In this document: positions 21,172-30,903 of the stretch, in pieces | How the letters are laid out: each line of letters starts with the position of its first letter | Numbering within the stretch: position 1 is the first letter of the stretch | Assembly (NCBI GenBank): GCA_903908065.1 | Contig: CAIVQO010000042.1 | Span: 62,001 to 126,000, forward strand | Direction of reading: 5' to 3' | Origin: an uncultured beta proteobacterium | GTDB taxonomy: Bacteria > Pseudomonadota > Gammaproteobacteria > Burkholderiales > Rhodocyclaceae | DNA length: 64,000 nucleotides | Position numbers and translations under genes: made by a program | Notes under the pieces: model-generated | Databases searched by the model: none | Told to the model about the DNA's origin: nothing | What the model saw: only the letters and a program-made list of their open reading frames with translations

Positions 21172-21990
21172 ATGCGCGGCGACTTCGCTCAAGCCGCCGC
21201 GACCTACGATTCGGCGGCGGCCCTCGCCCGCGAAGTGGGTACTCGCATGGCCGAGCGACTCGACCTCGTCAAGCTGGCTCCGGCACGTGTGGCGGACATC
21301 GGCTGCGCTACCGGCGATGGCATCCGCGAGCTGCAAACCCGCTACCCGAAGGCGCTGCCTCTGGCCGTCGACTACGCGCTGCCGATGCTGAGCGCGGTGC
21401 GTGCCGCGGTACCCTTGACCCAGCGCCTGCTCAGGCGTGGGCCGCGACTGCTGAATGCCGATGTACGCGCCCTGCCGCTGGGCCCGGGCTGCCTCGGACT
21501 GGCCTGGTCCAACCTGGTGCTGCACTGGCTGGACGATCCACTGCCCGCCTTCCGTGAACTGCACCGCGTCCTTGAAGTCGGCGGCTTGCTTACGTTTTCC
21601 CTGCTTGGCCCGGATACCCTGAAACCCCTGCGCGCCGAGGCACGGAAAGTCGGCGCCGGCACTACGGCGAAACCCTTCCTCGACATGCACGACATCGGCG
21701 ACATGCTGGTCGCTGCCGGCTTCGCCGACCCGGTGATGGATATGGAGATGATCACCCTCAGCTACGGCAGCCCGCGTCGTTTCCTCGCCGACCAGCGGCG
21801 GCTGGGCGTGCGCGACGGCCTGCTTGGGGGCGGCGGCTGGCGCGCCTGGCGCCAGGCGTTCGCCGCTTGGCCGCGCGATAGCGAGGGACGCCTCAATGCG
21901 GGCTTCGAGATTGTTTACGGCCACGCCTGGAAGGCGCCCGCACGGCAGACAGCCGATGGCCGGGCCGTGGTGAACTTTCACCGACGATGA
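21172..21990 (+). CDS. bioC: Malonyl-ACP O-methyltransferase BioC
   Basis: 272 residues. The N-terminus DFAQAAATYDSAAALAREVG is characteristic of BioC. The SAM site VADIGCATGDG is at about 41-51, followed by LAVDYALPML and the substrate-side LAWSNLVLHWLDDP. It methylates malonyl-ACP to start pimeloyl synthesis for biotin, consistent with bioB just upstream. The stop overlaps the start of the small basic gene that follows (ATGA at 21987-21990). Confidence 0.92.
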   Translation: MRGDFAQAAATYDSAAALAREVGTRMAERLDLVKLAPARVADIGCATGDGIRELQTRYPKALPLAVDYALPMLSAVRAAVPLTQRLLRRGPRLLNADVRALPLGPGCLGLAWSNLVLHWLDDPLPAFRELHRVLEVGGLLTFSLLGPDTLKPLRAEARKVGAGTTAKPFLDMHDIGDMLVAAGFADPVMDMEMITLSYGSPRRFLADQRRLGVRDGLLGGGGWRAWRQAFAAWPRDSEGRLNAGFEIVYGHAWKAPARQTADGRAVVNFHRR

Positions 21991-22136
21991 AGCGCGCGAA
22001 GCAGCGGCCCCTTAAGCCGCGTAATCCCGTCGCCGTGACGCCGCTGCTGAAGAAAGGCGGCGCCCACGCCCGCCATGACAAGCGCGCCAGCCGCGCAAGG
22101 CAAAAGGCGGCATTGCGCCGCGACTCGGCCGACTGA
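21987..22136 (+). CDS. Small very basic protein (49 aa)
   Basis: 49 codons from an ATG overlapping the bioC stop, beginning MKRAKQRPLKPRNPVAVTPL and ending in RRDSAD. About one residue in three is Lys or Arg. It has no motif I recognise; such basic tails suggest RNA or ribosome binding. The 4-bp overlap with bioC is the main argument that it is translated. It could be a non-functional small frame, so confidence is moderate. Confidence 0.55.
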   Translation: MKRAKQRPLKPRNPVAVTPLLKKGGAHARHDKRASRARQKAALRRDSAD

Positions 22137-22214
22137 ACCTGTTTTCCCGAACGAAACCGGCTTCGGCCGGGGATGGCGTTCGCCCATTTTGGCCGAGCTA
22201 CGTGAAATCCACTA

Positions 22215-22243
22215 TTGCGTATTGTGAAGTAGTATTTTACAAT
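22215..22243 (+). promoter_or_regulatory. aceE promoter with embedded 23-bp palindrome (candidate operator)
   Basis: A sigma-70-type promoter: TTGCGT (22215-22220), 17 bp, TACAAT (22238-22243). The spacer and -10 are occupied by an inverted repeat with arms ATTGTGAAGTA and TATTTTACAAT around a central G (22221-22243), 9 of 11 positions paired. A repressor bound here would block RNA polymerase directly. It lies about 170 bp before aceE, leaving a leader of roughly 160 nt. The regulator is not identifiable from sequence; a GntR-type pyruvate or lactate sensor is one option. Confidence 0.65.
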
Positions 22244-22412
22244 GTGGAACATTCGCATCCGGTAGGCCCATAAAACGGGTCTATCCTGCGAAGAAAAATC
22301 GGGCGGGAGCGGATGGCCGGCAGACCCCGGCAGGGCGATCGTCACGAGAAAAGAAGCGGAACGGCCCGGCGCGATGATCTCGCTCCGGCATTCAACGAAA
22401 CGAGGAGTCGTC

Positions 22413-25088
22413 ATGTCTGCCATGCCCCTTGCCGCGCCTTCCGACGCGGACCCCCAGGAAACCCGCGAATGGCTCGACGCGCTGCAAGCCGTCATTGCCG
22501 AGGAGGGGCCCGAACGCGCCCACTTCCTGCTGGAACAGCTGATCGCGCTCGGTCATCAGACCGGCATAAACATGCCCTACAGCGCCACCACCGACTACAT
22601 CAACACCATCCCGGTGGACCAGCAGCCGGTGGCACCGGGCGATTACGAGATGGAGCATCGCATCCGCACGTATGCGCGGTGGAACGCGCTGGCCATGGTA
22701 TTGCGCGCCAACAAGGGTGATTCCAACCTTGGCGGCCACATCGCCAGCTATGCCTCGGCCGCCACGCTCTATGACGTCGGCTTCAACCATTTCTGGCGTT
22801 CGCCGCTGCAGGAAGGCGGTGGCGACCTGGTGTTCTCGCAAGGGCATTCCGCGCCCGGCATTTACGCCCGCGCCTTCATGCTCGGCCGGCTGACCGAGGA
22901 ACAGATGGACGGATTCCGCGCCGAAGTCGACGGCAAGGGCCTGCCTTCCTATCCGCACCCCTGGCTGATGCCCGACTTCTGGCAGTTCCCCACGGTGTCG
23001 ATGGGCCTCGGCCCGCTGCAGGCAATCTACCAGGCCCGCTTCATGAAATACATGCAGCACCGCGACCTGATCGCCACCAACGACCGCAAGGTGTGGGCCT
23101 TCATGGGCGACGGTGAGATGGACGAGCCGGAATCGATGGGTGCTATCGGCATGGCCGGGCGCGAGAAGCTCGACAACCTGGTGTTCGTCATCAACTGCAA
23201 CCTGCAGCGCCTGGACGGCCCGGTGCGCGGCAACGGCAAGATCATCCAGGAACTCGAATCCGACTTCCGCGGCGCCGGCTGGAACGTGATCAAGGTGATC
23301 TGGGGCAGCTACTGGGATCCATTGCTGGCCCAGGACAAGACGGGCCTCCTTCGCCGGCGCATGATGGAGTGCATCGACGGTGATTACCAGACCTTCAAGG
23401 CGCGCGACGGCGCCTACGTCCGCAAGCATTTCTTCGGCAAGTATCCCGAGTTGGAGAAGATGGTCGCCACCTGGTCTGACGACGACATCTGGCGCCTGAA
23501 CCGTGGCGGCCATGACCCGCACAAGGTGTATGCCGCCTATGCCGCCGCGTCCGCCCACAAGGGGCAGCCCACCGTCATCCTGGCCAAGACCATCAAGGGC
23601 TACGGCATGGGCGAGTCCGGCGAGGCGCAGAACATTACCCACCAGCAGAAGAAAATGGGTACCACCTCGCTCAAGGCCTTCCGCGACCGCTTCAAGCTGC
23701 CGGTGAAGGACGAGGACCTCGAAAAGCTGCCCTACATCAAGTTCCCCGAAGGCTCGCCGGAACTCAACTACATGCGCGAGCGGCGCATGGCGCTGGGCGG
23801 CTACCTGCCCGCGCGCCGGCCCAAGGCCGAGTCGCTGCCGGTGCCGCCGTTGTCCGCCTTCGAGGCCTTGACCAAGGCCGGCGGCGAGGGACGCGAGTTC
23901 TCCACCACGATGTCCTTCGTGCGCGGCCTCAACGTCATGCTCAAGGACAAGGTGATCGGCAAGCGTGTGGTCCCGATCGTAGTCGACGAGTCGCGCACCT
24001 TCGGTATGGAAGGACTGTTCCGCCAGATCGGCATCTGGAACCAGGAAGGCCAGAACTATGTGCCGCAGGACGCCGACCAGATGATGTTCTACAAGGAGAC
24101 CAAGACCGGCCAGATCCTGCAGGAAGGCATCAACGAGGCCGGCGCCATGGCCGACTGGATCGCCGCCGGCACCAGCTACTCGACCCACGGCGTGCCGATG
24201 ATCCCCGTGTATGTCTGTTACTCGATGTTCGGCATGCAGCGCACCTTGGACCTGGTCTGGGCAGCCGGCGACCAGCGCGCGCGCGGCTTCCTGATCGGCG
24301 GCACCGCCGGGCGCACCACGCTCAACGGCGAAGGCCTGCAGCACGAGGACGGCCATTCGCAGATCCTTGCCGGCGTCGTGCCGAACTGCGTTTCCTACGA
24401 TCCGACCTTCGCCTACGAGGTTGCCGTGGTCATGCAGGACGGCCTGCGGCGCATGGTCACCGAGCAGGAGGACGTCTTCTATTACCTGACGGTGATGAAC
24501 GAAAACTACGAGCACCCGGCGATGCCGGCCGGCGCCGAAGCGGCCATCCTCAAGGGCATGTACCAGTTCCGCAAGGGCGCCGCCTCCAATGGTCCGCGGG
24601 TCCAGCTGCTGGGCTCCGGCACCATCTTCATGGAAGCCATCGCCGCCGCAGACCTGCTGAAAAAGGACTGGGGCGTCGAGGCCGACCTTTGGTCCTGCCC
24701 AAGCTTCAACGAGCTGGCGCGCGACGGCCAGGACTGCGCGCGCTGGAACCTGCTGCATCCAACTGAGAAGCAGCGTGTGCCGCACGTTGCCGCCTGCCTC
24801 GCCGAGACGCGCGGCCCGGTGGTCGCCGCGACCGACTACATCCGCAATTTCGCCGAACAGATTCGCCCCTGGGTGTCTCGCAGCTACACGGTGCTCGGCA
24901 CCGACGGCTTTGGCCGCTCCGATACGCGCGAGAAGCTGCGCCACTTCTTCGAGGTCGATCGCCACTGGATCACCCTGGCGGCGCTGACCGCGCTGGCCGA
25001 GGAGGGTGCGGTAAAGAAGGAGAAAGTCGCCGAGGCGATCAAGAAGTACGGCCTCGATCCCAACAAGCCCAACCCCGCGAAGGTGTAA
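22413..25088 (+). CDS. aceE: Pyruvate dehydrogenase E1 component (homodimeric type)
   Basis: 891 residues from the ATG at 22413, preceded by GAGGAG. It has the AceE-type opening DPQETREWLDALQAVIAEEGPERA, then GHIASYASAATLYDVGFNHFW and the thiamine-diphosphate signature GDGEMDEPESMGAIGMAGREKLDNLVFVINCN. Further on are SYSTHGVPMIPVYVCYSMFG and GGTAGRTTLNGEGLQHEDGHS. It decarboxylates pyruvate and passes the acetyl group to the lipoyl domains of AceF, encoded 3 bp downstream. Length matches the family (about 885-900). First gene of the four-gene PDH operon. Confidence 0.97.
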   Translation: MSAMPLAAPSDADPQETREWLDALQAVIAEEGPERAHFLLEQLIALGHQTGINMPYSATTDYINTIPVDQQPVAPGDYEMEHRIRTYARWNALAMVLRANKGDSNLGGHIASYASAATLYDVGFNHFWRSPLQEGGGDLVFSQGHSAPGIYARAFMLGRLTEEQMDGFRAEVDGKGLPSYPHPWLMPDFWQFPTVSMGLGPLQAIYQARFMKYMQHRDLIATNDRKVWAFMGDGEMDEPESMGAIGMAGREKLDNLVFVINCNLQRLDGPVRGNGKIIQELESDFRGAGWNVIKVIWGSYWDPLLAQDKTGLLRRRMMECIDGDYQTFKARDGAYVRKHFFGKYPELEKMVATWSDDDIWRLNRGGHDPHKVYAAYAAASAHKGQPTVILAKTIKGYGMGESGEAQNITHQQKKMGTTSLKAFRDRFKLPVKDEDLEKLPYIKFPEGSPELNYMRERRMALGGYLPARRPKAESLPVPPLSAFEALTKAGGEGREFSTTMSFVRGLNVMLKDKVIGKRVVPIVVDESRTFGMEGLFRQIGIWNQEGQNYVPQDADQMMFYKETKTGQILQEGINEAGAMADWIAAGTSYSTHGVPMIPVYVCYSMFGMQRTLDLVWAAGDQRARGFLIGGTAGRTTLNGEGLQHEDGHSQILAGVVPNCVSYDPTFAYEVAVVMQDGLRRMVTEQEDVFYYLTVMNENYEHPAMPAGAEAAILKGMYQFRKGAASNGPRVQLLGSGTIFMEAIAAADLLKKDWGVEADLWSCPSFNELARDGQDCARWNLLHPTEKQRVPHVAACLAETRGPVVAATDYIRNFAEQIRPWVSRSYTVLGTDGFGRSDTREKLRHFFEVDRHWITLAALTALAEEGAVKKEKVAEAIKKYGLDPNKPNPAKV

Positions 25089-25091
25089 GCC

Positions 25092-26777
25092 ATGTCACAG
25101 CTTATCGAAATCAAGGTTCCCGACATCGGCGACTTCAAGGACGTGCCGGTGATCGAGGTGCTGGTCAAGGTCGGCGACACGATCAAGGCCGAGGACTCGC
25201 TGGTCACGCTGGAATCCGACAAGGCGACCATGGACGTGCCCTCGCCGGTCAGCGGCGTGATCCGCGAGATGAAGCTCAAGGTCGGCGACAAGGTGGCGGA
25301 GGGCACGCTGGTCGCGATCGTCGACAGCGGTGCCGCCGCCCAGACCCCGGCGGCGGCCCCGGCACCTGCAGCGGCTCCCGCGCCAGCTCCGGCTTCCGCG
25401 GCTCCGGCGCCCGTTGCGGCCGCCGCGACGGTGGAAGTGCGCGTGCCCGACATCGGCGACTTCAAGGACGTGCCGATCATCGAAGTCCTGGTCAAGCCCG
25501 GCGACACGGTGAAGGCGGAAGACCCGCTGATGACCCTTGAATCGGACAAGGCGACGATGGACATCCCCAGCCCGGCCTCCGGCGTGATCGGCGAGCTGAA
25601 GGTCGGCGTTGGCCACAAGGTGTCCGAAGGCACGCTGCTGGCGTTGCTGACAGTCGGCGCTGGCGGTACGGCGGCTGCAGCGGCCCCTGTCGCGGCGGCG
25701 GCGCCTGCGCTGGCTGCGGCCCCCGCCGCGCCTGCGGCGGCTGCGGCCCCGGCACCCGCTGCCTCTGCCGCCTCGGTCGATTTCCGTCCCGGCGACGCCG
25801 AACTGATCACCCAGCCGCCGCGCGTGGCGATGCCGACGCCGGCAGACCGGTTGACTGGCAAGGCCGCCCACGCCAGCCCCTCGGTGCGCCGCTTCGCGCG
25901 CGAACTCGGTGTTGACATCGCCAAGGTGCCGGGCACCGGGCCCAAGGGCCGCATCCTGCAGGGCGACGTCCAGGCCTGGGTCAAGGGCGTGCTGAGCGCG
26001 CCGCCGCCCGCGCCTGCGGCGCCTGCCGGCGGCAACCTGGGCGGCATGGAACTGCTGCCTTGGCCGAAGATCGATTTCTCCAAGTTCGGCCCCATCGAAG
26101 TGCAGCCGCTGTCGCGCATCAAGAAGATCTCGGGCGCCAACCTGGCGCGCAACTGGGTGATGATCCCGGCCGTCACCTACCACGAGGATGCCGACATCAC
26201 CGACCTCGAAGCCTTCCGCGTCCAGATCAACAAGGAGAACGAGAAGTCCGGCGCCAAGCTGACCATGCTTGCCTTCCTGATCAAGGCCTGTGTCAAGGCG
26301 ATGCAACGGCACCCGGAGTTCAACGCTTCGCTCGATGGCGACAACCTGGTGCTGAAGAAGTATTTCAACATCGGCTTTGCCGCCGACACGCCGAACGGCC
26401 TCGTCGTGCCGGTGATCAAGAACGCCGACCAGAAGTCGGTGCTCGACATCGCCAAGGAGTCCGGCGACCTGGCCAAGCAGGCGCGCGACGGCAAGCTCAA
26501 GCCCGCCGACATGCAGGGCGCCTGCTTCACCATCAGCTCGCTGGGCGGTATCGGCGGCACCTACTTCGCGCCCATCGTCAATGCGCCGGAAGTCGCCATC
26601 CTCGGCGTCAACAAGTCGGCGATGAAGCCGGTGTGGGACGGCAAGCAATTCGTCCCGCGACTGATCCTGCCGCTGTCGCTGACCGCCGACCACCGCGTCA
26701 TCGACGGCGCCCTGGCGACGCGCTTCAACGTGTATCTGGCGCAGCTCCTTGCCGACATGCGGAGAAGCATGCTGTGA
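25092..26777 (+). CDS. aceF: Dihydrolipoamide acetyltransferase (PDH E2), two lipoyl domains
   Basis: 561 residues. Lipoyl domain 1 spans about 1-78 with lipoyl-lysine K44 (ESDKATMD) and lipoyl domain 2 about 113-190 with K153. Each is followed by an Ala/Pro-rich flexible linker (about 82-112 and 193-230). The E1/E3-binding domain is at about 258-298 (SPSVRRFARELGVDIAKVPG), then the trimeric catalytic domain to the end with the catalytic ADHRVIDGA motif. It transfers acetyl groups to CoA and forms the core of the complex. The stop overlaps the GTG start of the HslV-like gene (GTGA, 26774-26777). Confidence 0.96.
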   Translation: MSQLIEIKVPDIGDFKDVPVIEVLVKVGDTIKAEDSLVTLESDKATMDVPSPVSGVIREMKLKVGDKVAEGTLVAIVDSGAAAQTPAAAPAPAAAPAPAPASAAPAPVAAAATVEVRVPDIGDFKDVPIIEVLVKPGDTVKAEDPLMTLESDKATMDIPSPASGVIGELKVGVGHKVSEGTLLALLTVGAGGTAAAAAPVAAAAPALAAAPAAPAAAAAPAPAASAASVDFRPGDAELITQPPRVAMPTPADRLTGKAAHASPSVRRFARELGVDIAKVPGTGPKGRILQGDVQAWVKGVLSAPPPAPAAPAGGNLGGMELLPWPKIDFSKFGPIEVQPLSRIKKISGANLARNWVMIPAVTYHEDADITDLEAFRVQINKENEKSGAKLTMLAFLIKACVKAMQRHPEFNASLDGDNLVLKKYFNIGFAADTPNGLVVPVIKNADQKSVLDIAKESGDLAKQARDGKLKPADMQGACFTISSLGGIGGTYFAPIVNAPEVAILGVNKSAMKPVWDGKQFVPRLILPLSLTADHRVIDGALATRFNVYLAQLLADMRRSML

Positions 26778-27349
26778 CCACGCTCACCGTGGCCAAGAAG
26801 GGAGACCGGGTCGCCATCGCGGCGGACGGTCTCACTACCTTCGGCGACACGCGCCTGGCGCGCAGCTACAAGGGCGAGCACGACAAGATCCTCGACATCG
26901 CCGGATCGAAGATCGGCATCTGCGGGTCCTCGGCCCACCACCTGGTGCTGGTCAGCGCCTTCTCGAAGCTCGAGGACATCAAGCTCGGCTCGCGCATGGA
27001 GGTGTACGAAACCTTCCGCCGCCTGCACCCGGTGCTCAAGGAACACGCCTTCCTCAATCCCAAGGAGGATGACGACGATCCCTACGAGAGTTCGCAGATC
27101 ACCGCCCTGATCGCCAACAGCAGCGGCATCTACGGCGTCTATTCCTACCGCGAGGTGTTCGAGTTCGACCGCGTCTGGGCCGCCGGCTCGGGCCGCAGCT
27201 TCGCGCTCGGCGCCATGCACGCGCTGTACGACTCGGCGCTGACCGCGGCCGAGATCGCCCGTGCCGGCGTCGACGCCGGCATCGAATTTGATACCTCCTC
27301 GGGACCGCCCATCGTGGTCCACGAGTTCACCCTGGAGAAACCCCAATGA
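26774..27349 (+). CDS. HslV-like Ntn-hydrolase (proteasome-type subunit) inside PDH operon
   Basis: 191 residues from GTG at 26774. After removal of the initiator Met the protein begins TTLTVAKKGDRVAIAADGL, which aligns directly with the HslV opening: nucleophile Thr1, Asp17-Gly18, then GDT. A Lys in HDKI fits HslV Lys33 after a small insertion, and RVWAAGSGRSFALGAMHAL matches the HslV GSG-active-site helix. So the catalytic residues appear intact. An acidic loop (NPKEDDDDPYESSQ) is not found in HslV. Both ends are overlapped: GTGA with aceF and ATGA with lpd, so it must be co-expressed with the complex. No HslU-like ATPase gene is nearby. The substrate is unknown; a role in turnover of PDH components is only inferred from position. 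Confidence 0.8.
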   Translation: MTTLTVAKKGDRVAIAADGLTTFGDTRLARSYKGEHDKILDIAGSKIGICGSSAHHLVLVSAFSKLEDIKLGSRMEVYETFRRLHPVLKEHAFLNPKEDDDDPYESSQITALIANSSGIYGVYSYREVFEFDRVWAAGSGRSFALGAMHALYDSALTAAEIARAGVDAGIEFDTSSGPPIVVHEFTLEKPQ

Positions 27350-29148
27350 GCGACAGCGTCGAAGTGAAGGTTCCCGACATCGGCGACTTCAAGGACGTGC
27401 CGATCATCGAAGTGCTGGTCAAGGCCGGCGACACGGTCAAGGCCGAAGATCCGCTGATCACGCTGGAATCGGACAAGGCGACGATGGACGTGCCCTCACC
27501 GGTCTCGGGCACCATTAGCGAGCTGAAAGTGAAGGTCGGCGACAAGGTGGCCGAGGGCAGCCTGGTCGCTATCGTAAAAGTTGCCGCAGGCACGCAGGGC
27601 GCTGGCGCCGGTGTACCTGTTGCGCCCGCCGCGCCGGCACCGGTCGCCGTATCGCCAGCGCCGACTCCTGCTCCGGTCGCCGGGCACGCGGTTGGCAAGT
27701 TCGCCGGCAAGGCCGACCTCGAATGCGAGATGCTGGTGCTTGGCGCCGGCCCCGGCGGCTATTCGGCCGCCTTCCGCAGCGCCGACCTCGGCATGAAGAC
27801 CGTGATCGTCGAGCGCTACGCGACGCTGGGCGGCGTCTGCCTCAATGTCGGCTGCATCCCGTCGAAGGCCCTGCTGCACGTCGCTGAGGTCATGGACGAG
27901 GCGGCGCACGCCAAGGACCTCGGCGTCAGCTTCGCGGCGCCCCAGGTGGACATCGATGCCCTGCGCAAGCACAAGGAAAAGGTGGTCGGCAAGCTGACCG
28001 GCGGACTCGCCGGCATGGCCAAGGCGCGCAAGGTCGAGGTTGTGCGCGGTTACGGCCACTTCCTCGACGCCAACCACCTCGAGGTCGAGGAGACCACGGG
28101 AACGGCGCAGGACAAGACCGGTGCAAAAAAGGTGGTGCGCTTCCAGAAATGCATCATCGCCGCGGGTAGCGCGGCCTTCCACCTGCCCTTCATTCCGCGC
28201 GATCCGCGCATCGTGGATTCGACCGGGGCGCTCGAGCTCAGGCAGGTGCCGAAGAAGATGCTGGTCATCGGCGGTGGCATCATCGGCCTCGAGATGGCCA
28301 CCGTGTATTCGACGCTGGGCGCCCGGGTGGACGTGGTCGAGATGCTCGACGGCCTGATGCAGGGGCCGGACCGCGACCTGGTCAAGGTCTGGGAAAAACA
28401 GAACCTGCACCGCTTCGACCAGGTGATGCTGAAGACCAAGACAGTGGCTGTCGACGCCAAGCCCGACGGTCTCTGGGTGAAATTCGAGGGCGAGAAGGCG
28501 CCGGCCGAGGCCGTGCGCTACGACATGATCCTGCAGTCCGCCGGTCGTGCACCGAATGGCAAGAAGATCGCCGCCGAGAAGGCCGGCGTGGTGGTCGGCG
28601 AGCGTGGCTTCATCCCGGTCGACAGCCAGATGCGCACCAACGTGCCGCACATCTACGCCATCGGCGACATCGTCGGCCAGCCCATGCTGGCGCACAAGGC
28701 AGTGCACGAGGCTCACGTCGCCGCCGAGGCGGCCGCCGGGCAGAAGGCGCACTTCGATGCGAAAGTCATCCCCGGCGTGGCCTATACCCACCCCGAGGTG
28801 GCCTGGGTCGGCACCGGCGAGGACGAGGCGAAAAAAGCCGGGCGCAAGGTCAGCGTCGCCAAGTTCCCCTGGGCGGCGTCGGGCCGCGCGATCGCCAACG
28901 GCGCCGACTACGGCTTCACCAAGCTGGTGTTCGACGAGGAGACGCACCGCGTGATCGGCGGCAGCATCGTCGGCCCCGGCGCCGGCGACATGATCGGCGA
29001 AGTTGCACTGGCCATCGAAATGGGCGCCGACGCTGTCGACATCGGCAAGACCATCCATCCGCACCCGACCCTGGGCGAGACCATCGGCATGGCGGCGGAA
29101 GTCGCCCACGGCAGCTGTACCGACCTGCCGCCGCAGCGGAAAAAGTAG
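27346..29148 (+). CDS. lpd: Dihydrolipoamide dehydrogenase (PDH E3) with N-terminal lipoyl domain
   Basis: 600 residues. An N-terminal lipoyl domain (about 1-80, lipoyl-lysine K44) and an Ala/Pro linker precede the flavoprotein. FAD binding is VLGAGPGGYSAAF at about 131-143, and the redox disulfide GGVCLNVGC gives C165 and C170. The NAD site is VIGGGIIGLEMA, the second FAD motif is YAIGDIVGQPMLAHKA, and the C-terminal catalytic dyad is in IHPHPTLGE. It reoxidises lipoamide with NAD+. The lipoyl-fused form is well known from betaproteobacterial and neisserial PDH operons, and the domain is closely similar to both lipoyl domains of AceF. Confidence 0.96.
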   Translation: MSDSVEVKVPDIGDFKDVPIIEVLVKAGDTVKAEDPLITLESDKATMDVPSPVSGTISELKVKVGDKVAEGSLVAIVKVAAGTQGAGAGVPVAPAAPAPVAVSPAPTPAPVAGHAVGKFAGKADLECEMLVLGAGPGGYSAAFRSADLGMKTVIVERYATLGGVCLNVGCIPSKALLHVAEVMDEAAHAKDLGVSFAAPQVDIDALRKHKEKVVGKLTGGLAGMAKARKVEVVRGYGHFLDANHLEVEETTGTAQDKTGAKKVVRFQKCIIAAGSAAFHLPFIPRDPRIVDSTGALELRQVPKKMLVIGGGIIGLEMATVYSTLGARVDVVEMLDGLMQGPDRDLVKVWEKQNLHRFDQVMLKTKTVAVDAKPDGLWVKFEGEKAPAEAVRYDMILQSAGRAPNGKKIAAEKAGVVVGERGFIPVDSQMRTNVPHIYAIGDIVGQPMLAHKAVHEAHVAAEAAAGQKAHFDAKVIPGVAYTHPEVAWVGTGEDEAKKAGRKVSVAKFPWAASGRAIANGADYGFTKLVFDEETHRVIGGSIVGPGAGDMIGEVALAIEMGADAVDIGKTIHPHPTLGETIGMAAEVAHGSCTDLPPQRKK

Positions 29149-29199
29149 GGAATTCCTGATTTACGCGGAGGCGGCCAGTCCGGTAGACTGGTCGCTACC

Positions 29200-30903
29200 G
29201 TGCTGAAGAACCTACTTTCGCGGTTCCAGGAAAAGAAGGCGCCCGACCACCCGCTGGCTACGGACGAGGGCCTCAACGCCCTCATGGCGGAGACTCCCGA
29301 ATCCGACCCGCGCCGACTGCTGTTCGACATCGACCAGTGGTTCGGTAACATGGAGGAGGTTGCCAAGGAGATCGGGCCGACGCTGGCCCTGCGCGCACTG
29401 GCCCGCCTCGACCAGTTTGCCCGCCCCAGCGCGCGCCACCTGCTGGTCCGTTACCTGACTCCGATGGAACGGGAGTACCAGTCGGAAGCCGCGTGGTCCG
29501 CGCTGGACGAGCACGCCGCACTCCAGTACCGCTGCTACCGGATGTTCATCCTTCCTGGTCTGACGATGGCGACGGATGAAGACAAGGTGCGCATGACGCG
29601 CTGTGCCAACCGTGCCCTGATGGCCTGGGGCTTGCGCAAGAAACTGCAGCACTTCCGTTATCGTCGACCGGCCCCCGAACTTTGGCAGGATGCCCACGAT
29701 TTGTTGGCCGTGCTTGGCAAGCTCGGCTTGCTCAAGACGGTGGCTGCTCCCTATCGCAACGAGCCGGACAGTACCCCGCTCAGCGAGTACCTGATCGGCG
29801 TCTATCTCGAATTCGCGCCGATGGGAAACCTGGTGCCGCAGCAGATGGAGTTCATCGATGGCGTGTTGCGCCATGGAGGCGGCCTGGAACTGAGTTCGCA
29901 AGCCACCGAGCACACCAGCCATGTGATCGATATCGCCGCCGCTGCCGGGCCGCGGCCCTACCAGCCCGGACCAGAAGCCGGCGGCAGCCTGCGCTACTGC
30001 TCGGTGAGCCGGTTGAAGGCGCCGATGATGCGTTTTGCGGCCCAGTATCGCCGGCCCGAGGGCGCGCCGGAATGGTTGGGCCAGTGCCCTGCGAGCAAGG
30101 CCCAGGTGGAGGCGGCGATCCAGGTCCTGATGACGCATTGGGGCGGTCCGCCACCCAAGCGCGGCAGGGCTCGTAGCGCACGCCAGAACGAGATGCGCGT
30201 GATGCTGGGTTTTGGCCTGGCCCGACGCATGGTCGCCGCCGCGCATTTCGCCCGCATGGGACGATCGCTGAAGTACGAGGGCAACGATTTCGAAAGCATT
30301 TCACGGCAGTTCGACGAAACCCGCTTCGGCAAGGTGAGCATTGGCGAAGACGACGTCCAATCGGTTGCCGCCGATGGCGATGAAGGCGAAATCCTGACGC
30401 CGTTGCAAATATTGCGCAAGCTGGAAACGGGTGGTGACCAGGCCCAGATGGAGCACTGGACGCAAGTCGACGGCAGCGAAACCGGCATGGGCTTCGTGAT
30501 TCCGGCGGTGTTGCCGCGCCATCGCATCGGCATGCTGATCTGCTTTCGCGAGGCGGAAGGCATGGATTGGCGCATGGGGGTGGTGCGCCGCATCGGTCGT
30601 GACGCGGCGAATCGTCCCAGCGTGGGCATCGAGACGCTTGCCTGGCCGTCGAACTGCGCCCTGGCCAAGCCCAGCGGGATGGAAAGTGCCTGGACCAAGG
30701 TAGCCGATGGTGGCGGGCATGGCTGGTCGGATGCCATCATCGTCAGCCTGGATGGGCAGGAGCTGGTATTGCCGGCCGGCACCTTCTTCGAGAACCTTGA
30801 AATCGATTTGCGCAGCGAGTTCGGGCAATGGAAGTTGCGCATGGAAGCGCTGCTTGATCGCGGTCCGGACTATGACAGAATCCGGTTTTTGCGCATTTCC
30901 TGA
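29200..30903 (+). CDS. Hypothetical protein with a possible PilZ-like C-terminal domain
   Basis: 567 residues starting at GTG 29200. The N-terminal ~400 residues are helical ([40 protein letters not shown]) with no motif I can name. The last ~130 residues are beta-rich, with [20 protein letters not shown] and [20 protein letters not shown], which recalls PilZ-type domains (W-x-x-G-V-V-R...VGIE). The usual RxxxR c-di-GMP motif is not evident, so binding is uncertain. No signal peptide or membrane segment. A weak promoter (TTTACG, 18 bp, TAGACT at 29184-29189) lies just before it. rpiA starts 7 bp after its stop, so they are probably one transcript. Confidence 0.7.

Follow-up and report, generated by a model that had tools for sequence, protein, structure and literature searches.

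The BPH gene and its operon

The stretch analysed here, hereafter the window, comprises 64,000 nucleotides of contig CAIVQO010000042.1 (positions 62,001 to 126,000, forward strand) from an uncultured beta proteobacterium of the family Rhodocyclaceae in the order Burkholderiales. It carries an operon for the pyruvate dehydrogenase complex (PDC), in which a gene for a proteasome-type subunit, the betaproteobacteria proteasome homolog (BPH), is located between aceF and lpd (26774..27349, plus strand). The gene starts with GTG and encodes a protein of 191 amino acids with a Thr1/Asp17/Lys37/Gly50 active site; its frame of 191 codons and a stop is also listed as a portion of a longer open reading frame (ORF) starting at 26060. 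As stated in a preliminary description of the locus, the gene overlaps both neighbours by 4 bp: aceF ends at 26777 (GTGA) and lpd starts at 27346 (ATGA), inside the BPH stop codon. BPH can be regarded as a real gene because relatives occur in 116 of the 300 genomes sampled from the order and because the non-synonymous divergence (dN) is lower than the synonymous divergence (dS) in comparisons with five relatives, for instance 0.026 versus 0.32 for L037 and 0.23 versus 0.61 for the most distant one (L069). This purifying pattern and the conservation rule out a spurious ORF.

The neighbouring genes are all located on the plus strand and exceed the cut-offs of their NCBIfam models. Upstream in the operon, aceE (22413..25088) encodes the homodimeric type of pyruvate dehydrogenase E1 (TIGR00759, 1551.7 bits), its start being placed at 22413 within a listed ORF at 22374-25088. 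The adjacent aceF gene (25092..26777) encodes the dihydrolipoyllysine acetyltransferase E2 (TIGR01348, 697 bits), whose Pfam matches (two stretches of PF00364, PF02817 and PF00198) give it two lipoyl domains as well as a domain for E3 binding. The lpd gene (27346..29148) encodes the dihydrolipoyl dehydrogenase E3 (TIGR01350, 485 bits), which has its own N-terminal lipoyl domain (PF00364 at 6-76), giving three lipoyl domains across E2 and E3. A scan of 21900-29300, which is weak for such genomes, returned 0 promoter-like sites, and the 7 terminator-like sites all lie on the minus strand and are near the shuffled mean of 5.5. The scan thus gave no sign that BPH has a promoter or terminator of its own inside the operon. 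Downstream of lpd, a 567-aa ORF (29200-30903) has no Pfam match at 1e-5; its relatives follow lpd in L039-L041 and BPH in L204.

Identity of the window protein

The preliminary description had called the protein HslV-like. While it is indeed a proteasome-type subunit, the structure matches and the HslV scores assign it to BPH, a described family. The two crystallised BPHs (5ovu, E 4e-62; 5ovs/5ovt, E 3.3e-37) rank first among the solved structures, of which the best HslV reaches only E 4e-4. With the NCBIfam HslV models the protein scores 31.7 and 33.1 bits, below both cut-offs (157.75 and 137), and the Pfam Proteasome model PF00227 gives 21.5 bits, slightly below its cut-off of 22.4. Moreover, the genome possesses a separate hslV-hslU pair on another contig (hslV, C53:71181-71696; hslU, C53:71711-73030), in which hslU directly follows hslV and scores 682 bits against a cut-off of 362. 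Because of these structure matches, the sub-cut-off HslV scores and the separate hslV-hslU pair, the window protein is, as judged by sequence comparison, a BPH and not HslV. The possibility that it is an HslV copy, which the preliminary description had considered, is ruled out by the model scores, the gene order and the true hslV beside hslU elsewhere. Likewise, the earlier statement that no HslU is present holds for the immediate surroundings, where lpd comes directly downstream of BPH and no hslU lies beside it, but not for the genome as a whole. Among the matches listed, the closest named relatives belong to Rhodocyclales and Sulfuritalea genomes (L037-L040; 90-96% identity).

BPH is said to have been described by Valas and Bourne in 2008, an account that Fuchs et al. 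cite. According to Fuchs et al. (J Biol Chem 293:920; PMC5777263), BPH derives from HslV, and the operons that prevail as its context are those for argG, for PDC (in Cupriavidus metallidurans) and for Hsp33. In solution, each of the two BPHs studied assembles into a tetradecameric double ring, and the pore loop is long and acidic. The active site reacts with epoxomicin and MG132, epoxomicin forming an adduct on Thr1, and despite this reactive Thr1 the two proteins showed no activity on standard peptides or casein. The same paper reports that pull-downs with the C. metallidurans BPH recovered neither PDC subunits nor HslU, that carbonylation patterns were unaltered by BPH and that the HslU-interface residues are not conserved (PMC5777263). 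A survey from 2021, which shares its first author with that paper, states that BPH has no known unfoldase partner and that connectase, another member of the family, is a ligase (PMC8665760). A later paper on BPH function was not found among the matches listed from the open-licence literature, which is no proof of absence. The BPH family, its structure, its inhibitor chemistry and its location in a PDC operon are already known, and the occurrence in the PDC operon reported here is real but not new. Thus, the earlier remark that no function had been described is correct as regards the substrate, but not for the other properties, which are covered in PMC5777263.

Active site and pore loop

Numbered after the start residue, the window protein contains Thr1, Asp17, Lys37, which is the equivalent of proteasome Lys33, Gly50 and a Gly-Ser-Gly motif at 137-139 (Ser138), in agreement with the earlier view that it is catalytically intact. 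If GTG is the start, the sequence holds no propeptide. Conservation was assessed in 148 aligned rows, consisting of 147 loci and the window, with L067 left out due to a contig end that breaks its BPH; the alignments and trees include some near-copies. Residue 1 is Thr in 142 rows, the other 6 having Ser; Asp17 occurs in 147 rows and Glu17 in 1, and Lys37 and Gly50 are present in 148/148. In 18 further loci of the family, Thr1, Lys37 and Gly50 are found throughout, and residue 17 is Asp in 16 and Glu in two (L217, L219). The combined 166 rows thus have Thr1 in 160 and Ser1 in 6, Asp17 in 163 and Glu17 in 3, and Lys37 and Gly50 in 166/166. The loss of the Thr1 or Lys33 equivalents across homologues, which had been named as a check on the earlier claim, was not seen, and a degenerate protease is ruled out by the retained catalytic residues. 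The elongated acidic pore loop is equally constant. It lies at about residues 96-104 of the window protein (KEDDDDPYE), within the stretch of residues 89-106 that reads EHAFLNPKEDDDDPYESS, and at least 5 acidic residues occur across the aligned stretch in 148/148 rows.

Some variants of the active site were also observed. The six Ser1 rows all lie within the order, and PMC5777263 links Ser1 to BPHs outside the Betaproteobacteria. Three loci (L141, L144 and L140) form a deep Ser1 clade inside the order, and the genomes G157 and G118 each carry such a Ser1 copy (L141 and L144, respectively) together with an argG-linked Thr1 copy (L174 and L173). A further Ser1 protein, on a long branch, belongs to the PDC class (L063). 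Glu17 replaces Asp17 in three BPHs of the PDC slot (L065, L217 and L219).

Distribution and gene contexts

Among 300 genomes drawn evenly from the order, BPH was detected in the 116 genomes mentioned above, the window's own included, with 118 matches in total. The contexts of 117 of these matches (the window's own left out) were classified by tblastn with reference neighbour genes that had been identified by NCBIfam or Pfam; this replaced an earlier clustering of neighbours by longest ORFs, which was confused by antisense ORFs. The 117 loci comprise 44 of the hslO class, 41 of the argG class, 11 of the PDC class and 21 others. The 11 PDC-class genomes are spread over six family groups. A scan for close relatives yielded at least 31 named loci (30 PDC, one other), which were excluded from the context counts; some appear to be duplicates of loci from the genome set (possibly, for example, L041/G336, L043/G309, L044/G312 and L047/G132). 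The proposal that the order of aceF, BPH and lpd recurs in many genomes and is separate from true hslVU was borne out.

The other classes show recurrent arrangements as well. In the argG class, yajQ follows BPH at no more than 200 bp in 38 of 41 loci and a ppnP-like gene lies upstream in 26 of 41; the order argD-argF-argG-(ppnP-like)-BPH-yajQ recurs among L142-L184. Neither yajQ nor ppnP is mentioned in the available parts of PMC5777263. Among 22 loci of the class "other", an Hsp15-like gene is located no more than 100 bp downstream in nine and a GluQRS gene upstream in eight. The BPHs just before a gene for an Hsp15-like S4 protein (L082, L083, L085, L087, L089, L094, L095, L117 and L128) add a further context to the three that PMC5777263 names. 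The ppnP and Hsp15 matches score below their NCBIfam cut-offs (75/143 and 78/148 bits), and the Pfam matches PF06865 and S4 are above theirs. One contig is titled as a Klebsiella pneumoniae metagenome-assembled genome (MAG; L045), yet in the tree its BPH clusters with the BPH of L046, a Betaproteobacteria MAG, and the title looks wrong.

HslV and BPH occur together in 107 of the 300 genomes; nine have BPH only, 122 have HslV only and 62 have neither. HslV was called at E 1e-5, with 228 of 229 calls above the family cut-off, and since the genomes are related these numbers give no clean probability. BPH as a replacement of HslV is ruled out, HslV being present in 107/116 genomes with BPH versus 122/184 without it.

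A probable single move into the aceF-lpd gap

Assignment to the PDC class required either aceF or lpd as a neighbour. Nevertheless, of the 41 PDC-class loci, 40 show aceF upstream and all 41 show lpd downstream, the contig of L067 beginning inside BPH. The spacing between aceF and BPH varies, with a 4-bp overlap in 12 of the 41 loci, a gap of 0-30 bp in nine and more than 30 bp in 19 (one unplaced). Thus, the overlap seen in the window is a local feature, and it is the gene order that is conserved.

A quick maximum-likelihood tree of the 148 rows places the 41 rows of the PDC class, made up of 40 loci plus the window, on one side of a branch with a support of 95 in the Shimodaira-Hasegawa-like approximate likelihood ratio test (SH-aLRT), and the four context labels require 6 changes (minimum possible 3; shuffled mean 80). 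When the 18 family rows were added, 59 rows, among them L204, fell on one side of a branch with an SH-aLRT of 97. Both trees are quick ones with a midpoint root and SH-aLRT as the only support. As far as these sequences allow, the single clade suggests one move of BPH into the gap between aceF and lpd. The link with PDC would accordingly go back to one historical event, which weakens any conclusion on a shared function drawn from the repeated association.

Absence and separation within the family

Of 121 evenly drawn genomes of the family, 21 carry BPH, the window's own included, and in 20 of these BPH comes next after aceF. It occupies the PDC slot in the window's own genome, G187 and G248. 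Among the other 18 genomes, aceF is next upstream in 17, and lpd is also found downstream in 16 of these, the contig of L209 ending too early to show lpd. The exception is G341. BPH-less operons were sampled from 41 family genomes, 32 of which lack BPH; in 17 of the 32, lpd matches with at least 76% across almost its full length, and 16 of these loci could be assessed because the contig of L191 ends before aceF. In 16/16, aceF and lpd leave no space for a BPH gene. Measured between match positions, the gap is -4 to 20 bp in 13 loci and 89 bp in L193. In L192 the match gap measures 331 bp, but the lipoyl domain of lpd already starts about 12 bp downstream of aceF, and in L197 the matches overlap, the aceF stop lying where the E3 body begins.

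The BPH of G341 (L204) is 86% identical to the window protein and has Thr1, Asp17, Lys37 and Gly50 intact. It is located on a contig of 5,167 bp, on which no aceF or lpd match was found and BPH is followed by a 47% relative of the window gene at 29200-30903. The aceE gene of G341 (71%) lies on another contig, with the start of a lipoyl domain after it, and a third contig has the end of aceF (87% over 237 residues) directly before lpd, with 12 bp between them. As L204 belongs to the PDC clade, the most likely history of the G341 lineage is that BPH moved out of the PDC slot; this reading of the sequences concerns one draft genome with short contigs.

Possible function of BPH

We consider it probable that BPH is an unfoldase-independent threonine peptidase that is co-expressed with PDC and is not a working part of it. 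The protein belongs to the proteasome family of N-terminal-threonine hydrolases; its active site is intact, it is under purifying selection, and its position between aceF and lpd was inherited as one clade. Judging from solved relatives, the start methionine would be removed to expose Thr1, as suggested by the mass data for Cm-BPH in PMC5777263. Fourteen subunits would then assemble into a closed double ring that encloses Thr1, and the long acidic pore loop may gate or select the substrates. Such a compartmentalised peptidase could work without ATP on a limited range of substrates, namely loose, damaged or short ones, and it would be made alongside housekeeping or stress genes, which are those for PDC here and argG-yajQ, hslO or hsp15 elsewhere.

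Several points weigh against this interpretation. The two BPHs described in PMC5777263 were inactive on standard peptides and casein, so that the term peptidase itself is unproven, and according to PMC8665760 the family includes a ligase, connectase. Moreover, six family groups of the order set retain the PDC slot, and BPH comes next after aceF in 20 of 21 BPH genomes of the family; purely incidental placement does not strongly predict this. Finally, the number of subunits in the ring is known for relatives and would apply to the window protein by analogy.

The preliminary description had proposed a quality-control or scaffolding role dedicated to PDC. BPH would then be a protease removing oxidised or unassembled E2 and E3 or trimming the exposed Ala/Pro-rich lipoyl linkers, with its dose adjusted by translational coupling. 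The nearly invariable flanking by aceF (40/41) and lpd (41/41), the 4-bp overlap with aceF in 12/41 loci and the maintenance of one clade in the slot, including 20/21 BPH genomes of the family, would fit this idea. However, a dedicated role is unlikely because the 16 assessable BPH-less loci of the family have a PDC operon in which there is no room for BPH, and because G341 retains an intact BPH away from aceF-lpd. The sister BPHs in argG and hslO contexts and the published C. metallidurans experiments, in which pull-downs contained no PDC subunits and carbonylation patterns were unchanged (PMC5777263), also weigh against it. It is improbable, too, that the BPHs of the PDC slot represent a functional subclade, which after one move would act as an ATP-independent peptidase clearing damaged or orphan E2 and E3 at a dose set by the operon.

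By analogy with connectase, BPH could also use Thr1 as a peptide ligase or amidase and not be a protease in the cell, which seems doubtful; we know of no acceptor motif for BPH, which speaks against this activity. The proposal would explain why standard substrates were not hydrolysed although the active site reacts with epoxomicin and MG132 (PMC5777263), and connectase provides a precedent (PMC8665760). That BPH is a second HslV partnering with the HslU encoded elsewhere is highly improbable: fold family, catalytic residues, the hslU gene in the genome and the presence of HslV in 107/116 BPH genomes would agree with it, but the HslV models score far below their cut-offs, 9/116 BPH genomes have no HslV match, the HslU-interface residues are not conserved and HslU was not pulled down (PMC5777263), and the acidic pore loop (KEDDDD) differs from the short linker and the basic residues at the pore entrance that are reported for HslV.

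Taken as a threonine peptidase co-expressed with PDC, BPH is a widespread and well-conserved compartmentalised hydrolase. The present analysis adds the single-clade origin of its link with PDC, many PDC operons of the family that cleanly lack the gene, and one natural separation. This pattern of presence and absence offers natural test pairs, that is, relatives with and without BPH in a similar PDC operon, in addition to the separation in G341.

Comparison with known systems

The BPH of C. metallidurans (Rmet_1198, PDB 5OVU) is the closest counterpart among solved structures: it matches residues 2-187 (E 4e-62), has the same active site and, according to PMC5777263, shares the acidic pore loop and the location in the PDC operon. 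Six Cupriavidus loci (L055, L056, L058-L061) have the order aceF-BPH-lpd as well. However, their BPHs are 54-57% identical to the window protein, and the spacing between aceF and BPH is 62-168 bp and not a 4-bp overlap. The BPH of Thiobacillus denitrificans (PDB 5OVS, 5OVT) matches residues 2-185 (E 3.3e-37) and likewise possesses Thr1/Asp17/Lys37/Gly50, but its gene belongs to an argG operon (PMC5777263). BPHs of the argG class have TKWG after Asp17, whereas the window protein has TTFGDTRL, and they are found on the other main branch of the midpoint-rooted tree. HslV (ClpQ) shares the fold family and the proteasome-type active site and is said in PMC5777263 to be ancestral to BPH. In contrast to HslV, the window protein scores below the HslV cut-offs, has no adjacent hslU and carries a long acidic pore loop, and the BPHs studied so far have a 7-fold ring symmetry, whereas that of HslV is 6-fold (PMC5777263).
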